A DNA stretch of 40,540 nt. Source: Nitrospira sp. (GTDB lineage: Bacteria; Nitrospirota; Nitrospiria; Nitrospirales; Nitrospiraceae). A model generated the notes under the pieces. The model worked only from the letters and a program-made list of their open reading frames with translations, had not been told where the DNA came from and ran no database searches. The position numbers were made by a program, and so were the translations under genes. Numbering within the stretch: the stretch's first letter is position 1; each line of letters opens with the position of its first letter. Shown piece after piece: positions 10,935 through 26,042 of the stretch. Location of the stretch: NCBI GenBank assembly GCA_005116965.1, contig SWDG01000027.1, positions 356,508 to 397,047 of the forward strand, read 5' to 3'.

Positions 10935-10966
10935 CCCACGTGAACGATCAGTTGAAGAACGAAGGC

Positions 10967-11039
10967 GTTTCTTGTTTCGAGTTTCTGGTTTCATGGTGCG
11001 ATTTGTCCGGTTTGAAACATGAAACTCGTGACGCGAAAC
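10967..11039. repeat. Heptad-periodic inverted repeat, copy C (nuoK-nuoL gap)
   Basis: GTTTC units start at 10967, 10974, 10981 and 10988, exactly 7 nt apart. After a longer 21-nt spacer, GAAAC units lie at 11014, 11021 and 11035, with GTGAC at 11028 as the degenerate third unit. This is the best-preserved copy: four perfect left units and three perfect right units. It lies 31 nt before the nuoL start codon. Confidence 0.78.
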
Positions 11040-11070
11040 GTTTTCTCGTTGGCGAAGAACGAGAGACGAG

Positions 11071-12960
11071 ATGATTAGCTTACTTTGGCTTATCCCAGCA
11101 CTCCCGCTCGCAGGTTTTCTGCTGTTGGCCCTGTGTGGTGGACGGTTGAGCCGACACCACATCGCGTGGGTCGGGTGCGGTTCAGTGGGGACAGCCGCCG
11201 TGACGACCGCGCTTGTCGCCGCAGATTTTTTCCGTGGCTTTCCCACTCGCGAGTCTTACCAGCAAACGTTATGGAATTGGATCGACACGTCTGGAATGAC
11301 GGTCGGCATTTCCTGGAATCTAGATGCGTTGTCACTCTTGATGGTGACGGTGATCACCGGCATCGGTTTCTTGATCCATCTGTACTCCGCTGAGTACATG
11401 GCTCACGATGATGACTACGCCAGGTTTTTCGCCTACATGAATCTCTTCGTGGCCGCTATGCTGACACTGGTGTTGGCCGACAATCTCCTTCTGCTCTATC
11501 TGGGCTGGGAAGGGGTCGGACTCTGCAGCTATCTGTTGATTGGATTTTGGTATCGCGAACCCGAGTACGGCACGGCCGCGCAGAAGGCCTTCATCGTGAC
11601 TCGCATCGGAGATACGGCGTTGGCCATCGGGCTCTTCATCCTCTTCACGCAATTCAAAACCTTATCGATTCAACAGGTCCAGAGTCTGGCGACGGAGGCC
11701 TGGCCAGTGGGTTCGAACCTGGCCATGATCGTGGCCGTGCTCTTCTTGATCGGGGCGGTTGGAAAGTCGGCGCAATTGCCGCTTCAAGTGTGGTTACCGG
11801 ACGCGATGGCAGGCCCCACTCCCGTCAGTGCGCTGATCCATGCGGCCACGATGGTGACAGCAGGGGTCTACCTTATTGCCCGCATGCATCATCTGTTTGA
11901 GCTCGCACCGATGGTACAAGAGGGTATTGCGGTGCTCGGCCTCGTGACGTTGCTGCTTGCAGCAACCAGCGCCTTGGTGCAGCAGGACATTAAGCGGGTG
12001 CTCGCTTATTCGACGATGAGCCAGATCGGCTACATGTTTCTGGCGCTCGGCGTCGGAGCCTGGTCCGCCGCGCTCTTTCATTTCCTCACCCATTCCTGCT
12101 TCAAAGCCTTACTCTTCCTGGCGGCTGGATCAGTCATTCACAGTCTCCACCATGAACAGAACATCTTCAAGATGGGTGGCCTTCGGCGGCATCTGCCCTG
12201 GACATTTTGGACATTCTTAATCGGCGCTGCGGCTATGTCTGGTGTCCCTCTCATCACATCCGGGTTTTACAGCAAAGATTGGATCCTATGGTCGGTCTGG
12301 TCTTCCCCCCTCAGCCATCGGTGGATCTGGTTTGGTGCGCTACTCGGGGCCATGCTGACCGGGCTCTACAGTTTCCGGCTGATCTTTCGGGTCTTTTTCG
12401 GAGAAGTTCGTACACAACCGACCAGCGAATCAGGTTTGGCCATGCGCCTGCCTCTGTTGGTGCTGGCCTTCTTGGCGCTCACAGTTGGTTTTCTCGAGAT
12501 GCCCCACACACTCGGGAATATCACTCTGTTTAGCCACTACCTGTCGCATGCGCTCCCAACGACAGCGCTGCTTCCTGGGATGGAAGAATCGAGCGAAGTC
12601 CGTGAACAGCTGGCAGTGACCGTCGCGGCGCTGCTTGGAATCGGCCTTGCCGCGCTCCTGTTCCTGCCTGGCTCCCTCTTTGGTGCCCGAAGGACAGATC
12701 AATCCACGACTCACCCTTCGATGACCTTGTTGCAAGGAGGGTGGGGGTTCGATCGACTGTATGATCGGCTGTTCGTGCGGCCCTGGTTTGCTATCACCAG
12801 AAATTCTAGTGATATGGTCGATCGCGGGTACGAGTGGCTGGCCGTCTGCGCCGAGTCCTGTCATGGCTGGTTGAGTCACACCCAGACGGGGCAGGTCCGG
12901 TGGTATGCCGCCAGCATTGCAGTTGGAACGCTGATGTTACTTGGTCTATTTGCGATGTGA
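11071..12960 (+). CDS. nuoL: NADH-quinone oxidoreductase subunit L (proton pump)
   Basis: NuoL is the distal antiporter-like pump subunit. The 629-residue product shows the family core: the helix with YLGWEGVGLCSYLLIGFWY (essential Glu in WEG), KSAQLPLQVWLPDAM (essential Lys), and ALIHAATMVTAGVYL. A long C-terminal extension of about 150 residues, with RLYDRLFVRPW, matches the lateral helix HL and the final membrane helix. The N-terminus MISLLWLIPALPLAGFLLLA is a normal first helix, unlike NuoM downstream. The stop TGA lies directly before the repeat fragment that now begins nuoM. Confidence 0.95.
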   Translation: MISLLWLIPALPLAGFLLLALCGGRLSRHHIAWVGCGSVGTAAVTTALVAADFFRGFPTRESYQQTLWNWIDTSGMTVGISWNLDALSLLMVTVITGIGFLIHLYSAEYMAHDDDYARFFAYMNLFVAAMLTLVLADNLLLLYLGWEGVGLCSYLLIGFWYREPEYGTAAQKAFIVTRIGDTALAIGLFILFTQFKTLSIQQVQSLATEAWPVGSNLAMIVAVLFLIGAVGKSAQLPLQVWLPDAMAGPTPVSALIHAATMVTAGVYLIARMHHLFELAPMVQEGIAVLGLVTLLLAATSALVQQDIKRVLAYSTMSQIGYMFLALGVGAWSAALFHFLTHSCFKALLFLAAGSVIHSLHHEQNIFKMGGLRRHLPWTFWTFLIGAAAMSGVPLITSGFYSKDWILWSVWSSPLSHRWIWFGALLGAMLTGLYSFRLIFRVFFGEVRTQPTSESGLAMRLPLLVLAFLALTVGFLEMPHTLGNITLFSHYLSHALPTTALLPGMEESSEVREQLAVTVAALLGIGLAALLFLPGSLFGARRTDQSTTHPSMTLLQGGWGFDRLYDRLFVRPWFAITRNSSDMVDRGYEWLAVCAESCHGWLSHTQTGQVRWYAASIAVGTLMLLGLFAM

Positions 12961-13050
12961 CAGGATGCTGAAAAAGTCCTCCAGCGGCGTTCTCGCATCG
13001 CTCAGAGGCTCACCGTACCGAAGCGTACGCCTCGCCCCTTCGCTTGCTGC
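12961..13050 (+). repeat. Left part of a dispersed palindromic repeat, fused to the nuoM 5' end
   Basis: The stretch begins with CAGGATGCTGAAAAAGTCC directly after the nuoL stop and continues through a G+C-rich inverted repeat centred on GTACCGAAGCGTAC, with flanking GAGGC and GCCTC. I remember near-identical sequence as a high-copy intergenic repeat of Nitrospira that ends in the mirror image (…CATCCTG). Here that right end is missing, and sequence of nuoM type starts at about 13050. No second copy was seen in this window. Confidence 0.6.
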
Positions 13051-14497
13051 GGCGATTGATTTCATGCTGGCGCTTCTGCTCGGAGGACAACATTCCGCAG
13101 TACAGCCATCAGGACAGGGGGCATGGCTTGTAGAAAGCCACACCAGTTGGATTCCTCGTTGGGGCATCAGTCTCCATCTTGGCCTCGATGGACTGAGCGT
13201 CGTCCTTATTCTATTGACGGCCTTCGTCGGAATCGTGGCCACGATTGCCTCATGGACAGACATCCAGAGTCGCGTCGGATTGTTTCACAGTCAGGTCCTG
13301 CTTGCCCTGGGGGGTGTCATCGGAGTGTTTTTGGCCATCGACCTGTTTCTGTTTTTCTTCTTTTGGGAGCTCATGCTCATCCCCATGTATCTCTTGATCG
13401 TCATCTGGGGCCATGCACAGCGCCGGCATGCCTCGTTTAAGTTCTTTCTCTTTACGCAGGCCGGGAGCTTGGTGCTGCTTGTTGCGATTGTGGCGCTCGC
13501 GCTCCTGCATCAACAGACCACTGGGCGACCAAGTTTCGACTATGCCGATCTGATGGGACTGACCCTGACCAGTGAGATAGCTCGATGGTTGATGCTGGCA
13601 TTTCTCATCGGGTTTCTCGTGAAGCTGCCGGCCCCTCCCTTTCATACGTGGCTACCGGATACCTACGCAGAGGCTCCCACCGGGGCCACGATCATCCTCG
13701 CGGGGATCTTAGCGAAGACGGGCGCCTATGGGTTGTTGCGATTCACACTTCCGATGTTTCCCGAGGCCCTAAGCGAGGTCGCGCCCATCGCCATGGGGCT
13801 CGGTGTGGCCGGGATTCTCTATGCAGCGGTATTGGCCTGTGCCCAAACAGATATCAAACGACTGGTGGCCTACAGCAGCATCAGCCACATGGGGTTCATC
13901 CTGCTCGGCGCCTTCGCCGGCACGGAGCTGGCGTTGCAGGGAGTGATGATGCAGATGGTGGCGCATGGGCTGAGTACTGGTGGCCTCTTCCTGCTGGCCG
14001 GCGCACTTGAGGAGCGGTATCAGACAAGGGACATGGGTCAGATGGGAGGACTCTGGAGCGTGACGCCACGTCTAGCCACGATGGCGCTTTTCTTTGCCTG
14101 CGCGTCATTGGGATTACCAGGGCTGGCGAATTTTATTGGTGAGTTCCTCGTGCTCTTTGGATCCTATGCGACTCAACCGGTCATGATCATTCTGGCATCC
14201 CTCGGCATGGTGATGGCGGCCATCTATTCCCTGGGTATGATGCAGCGCACATTCTTTGGCCGACAACAAGACAGCCGTACAGCCCCAGACCTGTCGAATG
14301 TCGCATTTGGAACCTTACTGTTCATCGCAGGTCTGCAGATCTGGCTGGGGCTCTATCCGAAGGCCGTGTTGACCACGACGAAGCCGGTCATGGAACAACT
14401 GATACAGCATGCAGTAGTGTCTGCCAATCCAACTCACGTGCCATCAGAATCCCTGCTGTCGTCCCACATCGTGACCTCGCAGGGGGGTCCCCCATGA
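12965..14497 (+). CDS. nuoM: NADH-quinone oxidoreductase subunit M, with N-terminal helix 1 apparently replaced
   Basis: NuoM is the second antiporter-like pump. From about residue 30 onward it is normal, with PRWGISLHLGLDGLSVVL, FFFFWELMLIPMYLL (essential Glu), VKLPAPPFHTWLPDTYAEAP (essential Lys) and AQTDIKRLVAYSSISHMGF. The family's first helix (in E. coli a hydrophobic stretch of about 27 residues) is absent. In its place stand polar residues KKSSSGVLASLRGSPYRSVR, encoded by the repeat fragment at 12961-13050. ATG 12965 lies inside the repeat and has no good ribosome-binding site. A TTG at 12941 and an internal ATG at 13063 are the alternatives. The product may be defective, or the region may be misassembled. 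The 3' end overlaps nuoN. Confidence 0.85.
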   Translation: MLKKSSSGVLASLRGSPYRSVRLAPSLAAAIDFMLALLLGGQHSAVQPSGQGAWLVESHTSWIPRWGISLHLGLDGLSVVLILLTAFVGIVATIASWTDIQSRVGLFHSQVLLALGGVIGVFLAIDLFLFFFFWELMLIPMYLLIVIWGHAQRRHASFKFFLFTQAGSLVLLVAIVALALLHQQTTGRPSFDYADLMGLTLTSEIARWLMLAFLIGFLVKLPAPPFHTWLPDTYAEAPTGATIILAGILAKTGAYGLLRFTLPMFPEALSEVAPIAMGLGVAGILYAAVLACAQTDIKRLVAYSSISHMGFILLGAFAGTELALQGVMMQMVAHGLSTGGLFLLAGALEERYQTRDMGQMGGLWSVTPRLATMALFFACASLGLPGLANFIGEFLVLFGSYATQPVMIILASLGMVMAAIYSLGMMQRTFFGRQQDSRTAPDLSNVAFGTLLFIAGLQIWLGLYPKAVLTTTKPVMEQLIQHAVVSANPTHVPSESLLSSHIVTSQGGPP

Positions 14498-15981
14498 TCC
14501 TCCAGGATTTCATCGCTCTGTCGCCCATTCTGGATCTCGGGGCCTTCTGCCTCGTGACGATGCTTGCGATTGCCTTCAGACGGAATCATGCAAGGATTGC
14601 GGTCTGTGCGTTTCTATCGTGCCTGTTGACCCTCGTGACGTTGCCCTGGGCAGCCACGGTGGCGCCACGAGCCGTGACAACCTTGCTGGTCGTGGATGGA
14701 CATGCCTTGTTGTATATGGGGCTCATATTGAGTGCGACGATGGTCATCATTGCACTGTCGTACCGATACCTGAACAGTCAGTTTCATGAGAAAGACGGTG
14801 TCGAGGAATATTACCTACTCCTACTACTTGCCACGTTCGGGGGATTGGTCCTGACCACTGCCGCGCACTTCGTATCATTTTTTCTCGGGTTTGAACTCCT
14901 TGGGCTGTCTCTCTGCAGTCTGATCGGTTATTTACGAACCCGACGAAACCCACTTGAAGCCGCAGTGAAGTACCTGCTGCTCTCCATCACGGCATCAGCA
15001 TTCCTCCTATTTGGTCTGGCCTTGCTGTATTTCGAAAGCGGGGCCATGACCTTCCACGAGATTGGCGTGAGTGTAAAACAGTGGCAGACAGTTCCAGCAC
15101 TGTGGCTGGGAGGATTGATCCTCGTCCTGGTCGGCATCGCATTGAAGCTCGGTCTTGCCCCGTTTCACATGTGGATTCCCGATGTGTATCAGGGAGCACC
15201 GACTCCCATCACGACATACATCGCAACGGTCTCCAAGGCAGCGGTGATGGCACTGCTACTCCGCCTTGCCACTGAGGTCGGGATATTGGAACTGCCACCC
15301 GTTGTGCACCTGTTCAGTCTTCTGGCTGTTCTCTCGATGGTCACAGGAAATGTGCTTGCGCTCTTGCAACAGAATGTCAAACGTCTCCTGGCCTATTCGT
15401 CGATTGCCCACTTCGGCTACGTGCTCGTGGCCTTGCTGGCCGGTGGTCCTCCCGCTGCGGAAGCCGTCACCTTCTATGTGATCGTCTATTGTGCCATGTC
15501 GTTAGGGGCTTTTGGCGTCGTCACAGTCTATTCGAGTGAGGGAGGGGACAAGGACCATGTCGAGGACTATCAAGGCTTGTTTTGGACTCGTCCTTGGCTC
15601 GCGGGCATGTTGGCACTGAGCCTGTTGTCGTTGGCCGGCATCCCAGTGACGGCAGGATTCATCGGGAAGTTTTATGCGATCACGGCCGGTGTTGATGCTG
15701 GCCTATGGTGGCTCGTGTTGGCGCTGATTGGGAACAGCGTCGTGAGTCTCTACTATTACCTTCGATTGTTCGTGACCCTGTTCGGTGAGGTAGCAGTACA
15801 GGAAGCACTTCCTCAACAGGGGACGGTGCAACGGTCAGAGTTCGTCAGTTGGACGGCCGTATGCTCGCTCGGATTTGTTGCATCGATCATCCTCGTACTA
15901 GGAGTCTATCCAGAACCGCTGATCCAACTCATCCGTGATTCCGTGAGCAACTTGCTCATGGTGGCCGTGCAGAGACCATGA
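14494..15981 (+). CDS. nuoN: NADH-quinone oxidoreductase subunit N (proton pump)
   Basis: NuoN is the proximal antiporter-like pump and the last gene of the operon. The 495-residue product shows FFLGFELLGLSLCSLIGYL with the key Glu, and KLGLAPFHMWIPDVYQGAPT with the key Lys. LLQQNVKRLLAYSSIAHFGY and SLAGIPVTAGFIGKFYAI follow. The start overlaps the nuoM stop (ATGA). No terminator hairpin was found after the stop; the sequence passes straight into the accessory region. Confidence 0.95.
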   Translation: MILQDFIALSPILDLGAFCLVTMLAIAFRRNHARIAVCAFLSCLLTLVTLPWAATVAPRAVTTLLVVDGHALLYMGLILSATMVIIALSYRYLNSQFHEKDGVEEYYLLLLLATFGGLVLTTAAHFVSFFLGFELLGLSLCSLIGYLRTRRNPLEAAVKYLLLSITASAFLLFGLALLYFESGAMTFHEIGVSVKQWQTVPALWLGGLILVLVGIALKLGLAPFHMWIPDVYQGAPTPITTYIATVSKAAVMALLLRLATEVGILELPPVVHLFSLLAVLSMVTGNVLALLQQNVKRLLAYSSIAHFGYVLVALLAGGPPAAEAVTFYVIVYCAMSLGAFGVVTVYSSEGGDKDHVEDYQGLFWTRPWLAGMLALSLLSLAGIPVTAGFIGKFYAITAGVDAGLWWLVLALIGNSVVSLYYYLRLFVTLFGEVAVQEALPQQGTVQRSEFVSWTAVCSLGFVASIILVLGVYPEPLIQLIRDSVSNLLMVAVQRP

Positions 15982-16300: not shown

Positions 16301-17554
16301 ATGGCTAAGGTTACTGCCACAGAAGTACTTAAGCGGATCGAACATAAATTTGGGCTTGGTGTTTTAGCCTTTGATGAAAGCTCATATAAGGGAACTCAAA
16401 AGCGAGCTTTATTTGCTTGCCTGGTAAATCCTGCACACGGCTCTTGGGAGGCTTTGGCGAATAACGTACTGAGAGGACAAGGTTGTCCTCAATGTGGGCG
16501 AGAACGTGTGCTCGCTGCTGTCATGGCGCGGAGTGGGGTTACGAGCTTAGAACTTCAATCTGATCTCTCACAACTAGGATACCTCGCCGACCTAGACCCT
16601 GAACGAACCTATTACGGAAAAGAAATAATTTCCGTCATCTGCTCAAGCCATGGGCCGTTCACGACACGACTGAGCTACATCCGACAAGGCAAAGGTTGTC
16701 CTCGCTGTGCTTTGGAAAAGACGCGGGCAAGGGCTCAGGAGAAATCAGCAAAAGCGCGAGAACGTTTTGAGACAGAAATTATAGGGACGCATGGCCCCAA
16801 AATCATCGATTTAAGTCGCACTTCCTATTTAAACTCAAAAATTAAGGTAGAGGTTGGCTGTCTTAGAGAACCCGCGCATGGTTTTTGGCTTGTGCTTCCG
16901 TCTAATCTGAAGAAAGGACGCGGCTGCCCTAAGTGCGCTGCTGCACAAAGATCCAAGATACGTGTTAAAGGGAATGCCACCAAGTTTAAAGAGAGCGTTA
17001 TTAAACGGCATGGGTCAGGAGTAGTTGACCTTTCGCATGCTACCTACACCTCTGGTAATGCAATAATCATGGTTGGTTGCCTTCGGAATCCAGCACATGG
17101 TTGGTGGAATACGACACCAACCTATCTGCTTTCCGGAAGGGGTTGCCCTAAGTGCGCAAGGGGGAAGCGAGCCGATTTTCAAAACCAACGAAGGCTAAAA
17201 GCCGCCTTAATTCTCCAGCACAAGGTAAACGAAATTTTCGGGTTAATGGCAATTGACACGTCAGTCGGCACCTACTTGTCGGCATTGGAGCCCATGAAGG
17301 TGCGGTGTTTAATTGATGAGACCCATGGCTCTTGGATGGTCCGACCGGGAAACCTTCTATCTGGATTTGGGTGTCCCCGTTGTGGGACGGCTCGCATTGC
17401 ACAAAAATTGGCTAGTGCGGCAAAAAACAAGTTCGTGTCACGTGTAACCGAGGCACATGGCGTCGGAGTCATCGAGGTCGATGAAGCGATCCAGATCGCC
17501 AAGAAGAGAAGACCGACAAGACCGACTTCTAGCCGTTCGACGCACTACCTCTGA
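16301..17554 (+). CDS. Tandem zinc-ribbon repeat protein (five complete repeats, sixth cut off)
   Basis: The 417-residue product consists of five repeats of about 70 residues. Each ends in G-x-GCPxC. The candidate zinc ligands are C40/H46/C62/C65, C114/H117/C133/C136, C187/H193/C209/C212, C260/H266/C282/C285 and C336/H342/C358/C361, with exactly 15 residues between the His and the CxxC pair in every repeat. A sixth repeat starts at residue 376 and loses similarity at about 396, followed by a basic tail, so the 3' end is probably truncated. Similar ribbons occur in phage and nuclease-linked proteins, but no nuclease motif is seen here. The gene is A+T-richer than its surroundings, which suggests transfer. 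DNA or RNA binding is inference. It meets the next gene tail to tail with a 10-bp overlap. Confidence 0.75.
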   Translation: MAKVTATEVLKRIEHKFGLGVLAFDESSYKGTQKRALFACLVNPAHGSWEALANNVLRGQGCPQCGRERVLAAVMARSGVTSLELQSDLSQLGYLADLDPERTYYGKEIISVICSSHGPFTTRLSYIRQGKGCPRCALEKTRARAQEKSAKARERFETEIIGTHGPKIIDLSRTSYLNSKIKVEVGCLREPAHGFWLVLPSNLKKGRGCPKCAAAQRSKIRVKGNATKFKESVIKRHGSGVVDLSHATYTSGNAIIMVGCLRNPAHGWWNTTPTYLLSGRGCPKCARGKRADFQNQRRLKAALILQHKVNEIFGLMAIDTSVGTYLSALEPMKVRCLIDETHGSWMVRPGNLLSGFGCPRCGTARIAQKLASAAKNKFVSRVTEAHGVGVIEVDEAIQIAKKRRPTRPTSSRSTHYL

Positions 17555-18234
17555 TTCCGGACGTGGTCGGCGCCGCCCAAGATGCCTCGCCGAAGGGTGG
17601 CCGCCGCGCGATTCTGTTCGTCAGGTTGAATCAACGCAAACAACGGCACCGGCTGAGGGACCTCTCCTGGCGGCATCGACAGCATCGCTGGAAAATCGAT
17701 CAGCGGCGAAAGCGTGGCTTGGCTGGCAATGCGCAGCCGGAAGGCCATCAACACATCCCGCAACCGTTGGGTCTTCTCTTCTTCTGATATTGATTGATCA
17801 GGCACAATCCCGACTTCCCAAAGCGGCTTCGTCACCGTGACTGGAAAGGTCAGGCCGAGTTTTTGCGCATCCGTTGACACATCGATCAAAAATCCGTCTT
17901 GAATCGCCTGTTGGCGATTCGCGATCAGCTGGCTGGCCGGGATATCGGTCCGCATCTCCAGCACATTGCCTGAATGAGTGGGGTTTTCGAGTTTCGGTTC
18001 TGCTGCTGTCGGTAACGCTGGAACCGTTTCAAGAGGCGACTTTTCGCCTGGAGTGTTTTGATTGGGTGTCACAACAGTCTCATCCGGCAAAGCGGGAAGC
18101 GCATGGATGAGGCCTTCATACACTCGCTTGGCTGATTCAGACCAAACGGGATTACAGGGTCGACCAGCGAACGCTGCTTCGGCGGCTTTTCGTTCATCAT
18201 GAGTCAGGACTCGTGGGGTACGTGTCGTATCCAT
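17545..18234 (-). CDS. DUF6573-like protein of plasmid/integrative-element type
   Basis: This is a 229-residue hypothetical protein. The C-terminal half, ANRQQAIQDGFLIDVSTDAQ followed by FPVTVTKPLWE, RLRDVLMAFRLRI and a later PLFALIQPDEQ, resembles the DUF6573 family, which is common on plasmids and integrative elements. The N-terminal part contains AAFAGRPCNPVWSESAKRVY and then a proline-rich linker. No catalytic motif is visible and the function is unknown. I chose ATG 18234; a TTG two codons upstream at 18240 is the alternative. Its position beside a truncated transferred gene and an MFS fragment supports an accessory origin. Confidence 0.6.
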   Translation of the reverse strand: MDTTRTPRVLTHDERKAAEAAFAGRPCNPVWSESAKRVYEGLIHALPALPDETVVTPNQNTPGEKSPLETVPALPTAAEPKLENPTHSGNVLEMRTDIPASQLIANRQQAIQDGFLIDVSTDAQKLGLTFPVTVTKPLWEVGIVPDQSISEEEKTQRLRDVLMAFRLRIASQATLSPLIDFPAMLSMPPGEVPQPVPLFALIQPDEQNRAAATLRRGILGGADHVRNQR

Positions 18235-18272
18235 GATCAATTAGATAAGCCCGGACTCTACCAAGTCAAGAG

Positions 18273-23858: not shown

Positions 23859-23938
23859 GATCAATCATACTCCATGCTGATGGGTCCGCAGTGTGCCAGC
23901 GCGAACCCATCAGAGTCCAACGAAAAACGTCATTTTAG

Positions 23939-23967
23939 TTGGTGTACGTATTTCATCGTGCTATACG
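23939..23967 (+). promoter_or_regulatory. Promoter of the first beta-propeller lipoprotein gene
   Basis: TTGGTG (23939-23944), a 17-bp spacer and TATACG (23962-23967) form a -35/-10 pair. Transcription would start near 23974 and give a leader of about 39 nt, with AAAGGG before the ATG at 24013. Confidence 0.5.
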
Positions 23968-24012
23968 AGAACTGAGCGATCTCATACTCCGAGACACACA
24001 AAAGGGCACCAC

Positions 24013-24619
24013 ATGAAAACACGAATGTCGTCATGGCTCGCCTTGCCGTTCCTGCTGTTGACCGGCTGCCCAAGTGGAGGCGGTGGGGATGGGGGATTCG
24101 GAAACGGCGGTGGACTAAGCTCGCGAATAGCGTATGTCGCGAATAGCGGATCCAACAATGTGTCTGGGTACATGATCGCGACAACCGGAGCACTGACGAC
24201 CATTATTGGTTCTCCCTTTTCTGGCGTCACGGCCCCATCCGCGATTACTGTGTCTGCCAACAGCACATTCGTGTATGTCACCAATCAGGGTGGAGCCAAC
24301 ACTGTCTCGGCATTCAGGGTCAACAGCACGACGGGCGAGTTAACGCTTGTGGCCGGTTCACCCTTTGCGGCTGGGACCACCCCCAATGCGGTGACGGTCT
24401 CCCCCAACGGAAACTTCTTATACGTCGCCAATGGCGGTGGGAATGTGTCCGCTTACACCATCACGGCCGGCACGGGCGTACTCACGCCAGTGGCCGGTTC
24501 ACCCTTTGCGGCCGATCACAGCAGGAACTGGCGCCCTGACTCCGGTCAGTGGCGCGTTGGGAAACCCGTTTTCCGCAGGAACGACACCGTCTGCTATCGC
24601 CACGCCCGGTCAGCCGTAA
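24013..24619 (+). pseudogene. Beta-propeller (YVTN/lactonase-like) lipoprotein gene, broken by a frameshift and internal deletion
   Basis: The protein begins with a lipoprotein signal peptide (MKTRMSSWLALPFLLLTGC, lipobox LTGC) and a Gly-rich linker. Propeller blades follow with IAYVANSGSNNVSGY, VYVTNQGGANTVSAF and LYVANGGGNVSAY. The frame breaks at about 24510-24517, directly after GSPFAA. The next frame resumes with ITAGTGALTPVSGALGNPF and ends SAIATPGQP, the same ending as the intact paralogue downstream (SAIATPGRP). Several blades are missing, so loss by recombination between blade repeats, with a change of frame, explains the structure. Without correction the frame ends at 24633 with an unrelated tail. 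The product would be outer-membrane or periplasmic. Confidence 0.7.
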
Positions 24620-24640
24620 GTCTTCTTCTATAAACGAATA

Positions 24641-24675
24641 GTAGCCAGCGGCGCATGTACTGCGCCGCTGGCTAC
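24641..24675. terminator. Perfect 15-bp hairpin between the two propeller genes
   Basis: GTAGCCAGCGGCGCA (24641-24655) is mirrored perfectly at 24661-24675 around the 5-nt loop TGTAC. It lies 21 bp after the corrected end of the first propeller gene and so is placed as a terminator. No U-run follows, so a factor-assisted stop or an mRNA-stability role is also possible. Confidence 0.6.
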
Positions 24676-24750
24676 GTGCGTACAAAGACGCTGAGCCTGA
24701 CGATGGCAGGCCTTGCCGCCAACATCCAACCAACGCTCCAAACTGCGTCG

Positions 24751-24779
24751 TTGTCAGTGCTTCGTGAGGGTGGTATAAA
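24751..24779 (+). promoter_or_regulatory. Strong promoter giving a leaderless transcript
   Basis: TTGTCA (24751-24756), a 17-bp spacer and TATAAA (24774-24779) make the best sigma70-type match in the window. The ATG of the lipoprotein starts at 24786, 6 nt after the -10 box. This is where RNA polymerase would be expected to begin transcription. No ribosome-binding site is present. Confidence 0.65.
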
Positions 24780-24785
24780 ACACAT

Positions 24786-26042
24786 ATGGTCCACCGAGAC
24801 ACTCACACCACTTTGATCCTGAAGAAGGCACTACTGGGAGGGCTCTTTTCATTGGTCGTGCTCTCATCAGGCTGTGGCGACGATGGAGGAGAGGGTGGAG
24901 GAACTGGGGGAACATTAGGAGGGCTTGGAACGACATCCATTCTCTATGTCGCAAATAGCGGCTCTGATAATGTGTCGGGGTACAGCATCAATGCCACAAG
25001 CGGAATCCTCGCGGCAATTCCCGGCTCTCCGTTCTCGAATGTCTCGGGTCCTTCTGCCATGGCCGTGTCCTCCAATGGATTTTTCGCCTATGTGACGAAC
25101 GGTAGAACAAGTACGGTCGCGGCATTCAGAGTTTCTACAGAAGGCGCACTCCTATCAGTCCCAACGACGCCATCCAATCCCAATCCGGCGCCGGTCGAAG
25201 CAGCTCCAGGTGCATTGGCCATTGCTCCAAACACGAAGTATGTATATGTGGGAAATAGTGGCACGGACAAGCTGACCGCGTTTACCATCGAGGCCTCCGG
25301 CGCCTTAACCTTGATACCACAAACGACCGGCACCACAAATCCTGTATCAGTCAACGGAGCAGATCCCGCAGCTATTGCGATCACTCAAAACGGGCAATTC
25401 CTTTATGTCGCCAACAGCGGGTCCAACGATATCACGGCGTTTTCGATCGGAGCCACCGGGCTTCTCAGTCTGATCGCTCCGTCTGGAGCAAACACCAACC
25501 CTATCAAGACCAGTGTGACGGCCCCGAAAGGCATGGCCATCTCGCCGAACGGATCGTTTCTTTATGTCGCCAACAGCAGCACTCATAACGTGACGGTTTT
25601 TCAGATCGGAACAAACGGCCTCTTAACCTTGGTGCCGCCTGCAGGGGGCACGACAAATCCAATCTCCACAGGCACAGGCGGGACGACTCCCAACTCCATC
25701 ATGATCTCCCTTGATGGACGATTTCTCTATTCCGCCAATGGCGGCGGCACCATATCGGCATTCACGATCGGGAGCGACGGACTCTTAACGTTCGTACCAA
25801 GCGCGGCAGGGAATCTCAATCCCGTATCAGCCGGAGCCAATGCAAGCCCCGTAGCCCTGACGATATCACCAGATGGGCGATTCCTGTACGTGGCAACCAA
25901 CGTGACGACCCTGGGGGGGCGTGTGTCGGCTTTTACCATCACCCCCGAAACAGGGGCGCTTGTCCCGTTGACGGCTTTGCTAGGTAATCCTTTTCTAGCC
26001 GGAAGCACACCATCTGCGATTGCGACGCCTGGCCGACCATAG
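24786..26042 (+). CDS. Beta-propeller (YVTN/lactonase-like repeat) lipoprotein
   Basis: This 418-residue protein has a signal peptide ending in the lipobox LSSGC, followed by a Gly/Asp-rich linker. About seven blade units then recur, each with a strand of the type LYVANSGSNDITAF, FLYVANSSTHNVTVF or FLYSANGGGTISAF preceded by A-x-SPNG. This is the 6-phosphogluconolactonase/YVTN seven-bladed propeller pattern. Cytosolic lactonases lack lipoprotein signals, so a binding or structural role at the cell surface is more likely than sugar chemistry. It is the intact paralogue of the broken gene at 24013. The next gene is convergent, 38 bp away. Confidence 0.82.
   Translation: MVHRDTHTTLILKKALLGGLFSLVVLSSGCGDDGGEGGGTGGTLGGLGTTSILYVANSGSDNVSGYSINATSGILAAIPGSPFSNVSGPSAMAVSSNGFFAYVTNGRTSTVAAFRVSTEGALLSVPTTPSNPNPAPVEAAPGALAIAPNTKYVYVGNSGTDKLTAFTIEASGALTLIPQTTGTTNPVSVNGADPAAIAITQNGQFLYVANSGSNDITAFSIGATGLLSLIAPSGANTNPIKTSVTAPKGMAISPNGSFLYVANSSTHNVTVFQIGTNGLLTLVPPAGGTTNPISTGTGGTTPNSIMISLDGRFLYSANGGGTISAFTIGSDGLLTFVPSAAGNLNPVSAGANASPVALTISPDGRFLYVATNVTTLGGRVSAFTITPETGALVPLTALLGNPFLAGSTPSAIATPGRP

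Follow-up and report, generated by a model that had tools for sequence, protein, structure and literature searches.

A truncated palindromic repeat in place of the 5' end of nuoM in a Nitrospira complex I cluster: a probable in-frame deletion chimaera

The nuoL-nuoM-nuoN region

The window analyzed here, a 40,540-nt stretch of a Nitrospira sp. genome (3.73 Mb in 27 contigs, 99.2% complete), is located on a 719-kb contig and contains a nuo cluster that looks full, from nuoA to nuoN with a fused nuoCD. The nuoA to nuoK genes were named from translations of open reading frames, and nuoL, nuoM and nuoN from profile matches. The layout of the nuo clusters in this genome agrees with that published for Nitrospira (PMC12342949). 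The features surrounding the 5' end of nuoM are the following:

11071-12960, + strand: nuoL, intact, ending in ...LLGLFAM followed by TGA (12958-12960)
12961-13053, + strand: left 93 bp of a 121-bp palindromic repeat, encoding in frame residues 1-30 of the chimaeric NuoM
12965-12967, + strand: repeat-derived ATG, separated by 4 nt from the nuoL stop, at which translation of the chimaeric nuoM probably starts
13051-13053, + strand: GGC microhomology at the deletion junction, from the alignment with four close relatives (G068, G066, G102, G088) and the repeat consensus
13054-14497, + strand: native nuoM body, stop included, with complete codons from Ile38 (native numbering)
13064-13066, + strand: alternative in-frame ATG; a start there would lose TM1 and most of TM2
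14494-15981, + strand: nuoN, intact (TIGR01770, 368 bits, cut-off 332.6)

The nuoL product matches TIGR01974 with 719 bits over profile positions 2-629 of 630 and is 94.6-96.5% identical to its counterparts in close relatives, and the nuoM body is intact from the second half of TM2 to the C-terminus, with no stops. The repeat begins at the base that follows the nuoL stop, shares the reading frame of nuoM and retains the first 93 bp of the 121-bp unit, the right ~28 bp being absent. Native nuoM resumes at 13054 (GATTGATTTC; GATTGATTTCATGCTGGCG), the same as in the relatives, so that the repeat replaces native nuoM codons 1-37, which encode TM1 and the first half of TM2. The GGC at the junction is common to the repeat (GCGGC/CTT; GCTGCGGC/CTT) and to native nuoM (TTGGC/GATT; GCGTTGGC/GATT). 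The repeat has likely been turned into coding sequence, as predicted from the open frame and from the position of the start beside the nuoL stop.

The initial annotation had placed a repeat directly after the nuoL stop, in frame with nuoM and supplying its ATG, and these claims hold; its right edge of the repeat, 13062, is ~9 bp too far. It had also tentatively attributed the arrangement to a deletion by which one half of a repeat became fused to the body of nuoM, an explanation now supported by the intact orthologues, the truncated palindrome, the 3-bp microhomology and the native flanks on both sides. The adjacent membrane subunits are normal, as had been noted: the family matches of both NuoL and NuoN begin at the N-terminus.

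Several other features of the window were observed. The nuoK-nuoL gap (10935-11070) contains a different palindrome (z -2.1 relative to shuffled sequences) that has no second copy in the genome. Just downstream of nuoN (16301-17554), a gene encodes a protein that matches DUF4379, CapR and DUF723 and contains several treble-clef-like repeats, adjoined by a DUF6573 protein (17545-18240, - strand). Further downstream (23893-26042), two adjacent open reading frames resemble beta-propeller lipoproteins, the second of which matches Pfam Lactonase, while the reading frame of the first (23893-24633) seems to break down close to its end, perhaps through a frameshift.

The repeat family and the direction of change

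The sequence that follows the nuoL stop (CAGGATGCTGAAAAAGTCC...) yields 43 matches in its own genome at E<=0.001, the window included, most of which align to query bases 21/22-114, i.e. as far as window position 13053. The family comprises ~40 copies, and the best of the others is 91% identical to the window copy. The consensus, from a profile built from the copies, is a 121-bp palindrome (AGGATGTTGAAAAAGTCC...GGCCTTTTTGAACATCCT) whose fold spans its full length. As single-stranded DNA, an intact copy forms a strong hairpin (z -3.2 versus shuffled sequences), whereas the fragment in the window has lost it (z 0.2). With its many dispersed copies and conserved palindrome, the family belongs to the palindromic interspersed repeats (REP/MITE-like); a search of Rfam at the repeat site returned no RNA family. 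One copy (L152, 814-933) has on both sides the 10-bp sequence CTATGTGCAT, a direct repeat that could be a target-site duplication; most copies have no obvious one.

The genome also encodes two Y1_Tnp proteins, L148 and L149 (G000:C6:304834 and C6:505911), in open frames of ~290-310 codons, a length that would suffice for REP-associated tyrosine transposases; the gene at C6:304834 lies ~3 kb from a repeat copy. Five copies (L150, L151, L156, L180 and L182) overlap the ends of predicted open reading frames of >200 codons, and judging from these overlaps, protein ends of repeat origin may be frequent in this genome.

The 5' end of nuoM is intact in all 29 related genomes where it is readable (13 in one junction alignment and 19 in another, with three in both), which answers the question that the initial annotation had raised about relatives. 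In the six closest relatives (G068, G066, G102, G099, G088 and G007), which are 94-96% identical to the window over the nuoM body, the gene starts with sequences resembling MALWLLILIPILAAPLAWMGQQWSRHAPRWIVLGALAIDFILALLLGG, with few differences each, and the native ATG is located 5 nt after the nuoL stop, compared with 4 nt in the window. In the tree of nuoL, nuoM and nuoN, the window is nested inside the clade of these six intact relatives, with local supports of 0.86, and the truncation of nuoM is therefore derived. Inheritance of the repeat from the ancestor of this clade was considered and rejected, the repeat being absent from all six. No additional genome of this species emerged from the scan of GTDB r220, which returned only a near relative, Hainich-H41-bin216 (L046), and distant homologues.

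In three further, more distantly related genomes, G100 (L129), G034 (L133) and G012 (L134), the repeat occurs between nuoL and nuoM, with a conserved tail of ~70 bp behind it and nuoM intact. This arrangement is unsupported as a direct precursor of the one in the window: the three genomes fall outside the clade (G100 and G034 by the tree, G012 only by its lower identity), and the insertion is a longer, composite one. A tail-like match beside another repeat copy in G012 (C1:213422-213477) indicates that the repeat and the ~70-bp tail may form a composite element, and the nuoL-nuoM gap looks like a recurrent insertion site.

The predicted NuoM chimaera and the other nuo clusters

The product that starts at ATG 12965 would consist of 510 residues, compared with 517 in the relatives, with the repeat-encoded residues 1-30 (MLKKSSSGVLASLRGSPYRSVRLAPSLAAA) followed by the native part from I31, which corresponds to native Ile38; across the junction, the repeat-encoded RLAPSLAAA is fused to the native IDFMLALLLGG. 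This protein matches the NuoM subfamily profile TIGR01972 with 513.5 bits (cut-off 263.8), over positions 25-485 of 486 as opposed to 3-485 for the intact L046 protein. In an alignment of 38 sequences, K220, K251 and E393 are invariant and E135 is nearly invariant, and the window protein retains all four.

Both hydropathy and the AlphaFold2 model indicate that TM1 is absent, and the canonical N-terminal helix set is accordingly incomplete. The stretch LAPSLAAAIDFMLALLLGG is hydrophobic, yet weaker than native TM2: the best 19-residue sum of the rebuilt helix is ~4.3, versus 0.2-1.8 for the native one (on a dG scale). In the AlphaFold2 model, obtained with 37 homologues, residues 1-17 are unstructured (mean pLDDT of 43 for the first ten) and residues 18-41 form a helix (pLDDT ~95; pTM 0.90), an outcome favored by the predominance in the input alignment of homologues whose TM2 is normal. 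The intact L046 protein has TM1 at 2-20 and TM2 at 27-49, and beyond helix 18-41, the modeled chimaera has the helices of L046. The chimaera thus has no TM1, and its TM2 is predicted to be rebuilt, in part by codons of the repeat. The loss of helix 1 that the initial annotation had proposed is borne out by the replacement of native codons 1-37; its chimaeric N-terminus stands as well, with residues 1-30 encoded by the repeat, and the repeat codons also rebuild a hydrophobic stretch at the position of TM2.

In complex I of Escherichia coli, NuoM has 14 transmembrane helices and a periplasmic N-terminus. Because the N-terminus is natively periplasmic and TM1 is lost, the new N-terminus would be cytoplasmic and the remaining helices would keep their native orientation.

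The pairwise dN/dS values for the nuoM body are 0.14-0.29 when the window is compared with its six close relatives, overlapping with those among the relatives (0.13-0.24), and the ratios of nonsynonymous to synonymous changes unique to the window are 6:12 for nuoM, 10:23 for nuoL and 4:11 for nuoN. At the sequence level, nuoM appears to have evolved without clear relaxation of selection, a pattern that is to be read with the caveat that a very recent deletion would leave no sign of decay either.

Two more nuo loci are present in this genome, one on C27, with nuoF, nuoL, nuoM and nuoN and a full-length NuoM frame, and the other on C7, with two NuoM-type genes. The first of these is the additional cluster with a complete NuoM for which the genome was to be checked, and it also carries nuoF. 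The two loci match the canonical and 2M complexes that have been described for Nitrospirales, several genomes of which contain an additional cluster with a fused NuoCD (PMC12342949; PMC7784846). Because of these two further clusters, the truncated copy may be dispensable, and should its complex fail, another nuo cluster could compensate.

Interpretation and known parallels

Our preferred reading of the locus is a derived chimaera, created by an in-frame deletion, from which NuoM is probably still produced, and we assign a probability of roughly 0.55 to the whole scenario of repeat insertion, deletion and formation of such a chimaera. Under this scenario, the lineage leading to this genome would have acquired a 121-bp palindromic mobile-type repeat, inserted immediately behind the nuoL stop, and either a deletion via the 3-bp microhomology or the insertion itself would have removed the right arm of the repeat, the intergenic gap and nuoM codons 1-37. 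The left arm would have remained in frame, with its ATG at the site of the former native ATG, and translation from this ATG would be coupled to nuoL. The 510-residue product would then consist of 17 disordered, positively charged residues, a TM2 that is half repeat and half native, and otherwise unchanged helices. A cytoplasmic location would fit the charge of the N-terminus (K3, K4, R14, R19, R22), with the orientation of the rest maintained. With the pumping helices and the conserved residues untouched, the complex would probably still assemble and work. That the window actually encodes a functional bacterial NuoM without TM1, in which a mobile-type palindromic repeat provides the start codon and half of TM2, is a more tentative proposition, to which we give slightly less than even weight.

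The same deletion could instead have produced a young pseudogene, such that the chimaeric NuoM is not made or not assembled; this accessory complex I would then be without activity or without its distal part, and its role would fall to the other clusters. We consider this unlikely, albeit the strongest of the alternatives. It is compatible with the presence of the nuo loci on C27 (with nuoF) and C7 (with two NuoM-type genes), with the additional nuo clusters described in some Nitrospirales (PMC12342949), with the lack of a close orthologue of this NuoM in many genomes of the genus and with the presence of TM1 in every readable orthologue. However, the fusion is in frame (a one in three chance), 477 codons follow without a stop or frameshift, the neighboring genes are intact, and the selection pattern, silent if the deletion is very recent, resembles that of the intact relatives; furthermore, N-terminal losses are tolerated in ND2 and ND5 (PMC9977279).

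Still less probable is an error of assembly or sequencing, whereby a collapse or a polymerase jump at the hairpin would mimic a deletion while the cell itself has the complete palindrome and the nuoM start. Palindromes are difficult templates, and the species is represented here by a single genome. Misassembly is nevertheless unlikely: the order of nuoL and nuoM is kept, which argues against a repeat-driven misjoin; the window repeat is at most 91% identical to any other genomic copy and therefore was not borrowed from another locus; the homology at the junction is just 3 bp; and the contig is 719 kb long in an assembly that is 99% complete. Moreover, the missing ~120 bp are found on no other contig, a search of the genome itself giving nothing significant (best E of 0.06 over 25 nt). 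Finally, the preference for ATG 12965 is opposed by the in-frame ATG at 13064, from which a NuoM of 477 residues without TM1 and most of TM2 would be translated, leaving the repeat as a 5' leader only. This start is very improbable: no ribosome-binding site is apparent by eye, the codon is >100 nt from the nuoL stop and corresponds to an internal hydrophobic residue in the relatives, and the upstream in-frame ATG at 12965 occupies the native start site.

If the deletion chimaera is real, nature has in effect carried out a deletion experiment on complex I, removing TM1 from the NuoM of a complete nuo cluster, and the intact version in close relatives allows comparison. The case also extends the conversion of repeats into coding sequence to a start codon and a membrane helix. 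Its scope is limited to one genome and an accessory cluster, and both halves of the story have known parallels, although a limited literature search found no description of a bacterial NuoM that owes its start codon and half of one transmembrane helix to a repeat. This is probably a natural trimming that is tolerated, as in the known cases, rather than a new kind of system.

In particular, Drosophila ND5 lacks TMH1 and bilaterian ND2, with 11 TMHs, lacks three N-terminal ones, losses that have been described as tolerated (PMC9977279). These proteins share with the chimaera the loss of N-terminal helices outside the proton-translocating core, the fold being otherwise kept; in contrast, the present case concerns a predicted bacterial NuoM (ND4 type) in one genome, with the lost part replaced by repeat-encoded residues. 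The Rickettsia palindromic elements are likewise palindromic interspersed repeats, of ~120-150 bp, that are read in frame in a conserved protein (PMC10969869). Those elements are inserted in frame and add a peptide to an otherwise whole gene, whereas in the window, native nuoM codons 1-37 are missing and the beginning of the gene, ATG included, is provided by a truncated repeat. With REP/REPIN and MITE-type repeats, the 121-bp family shares the tens of dispersed palindromic copies and the presence of Y1_Tnp-type transposase genes in the genome.
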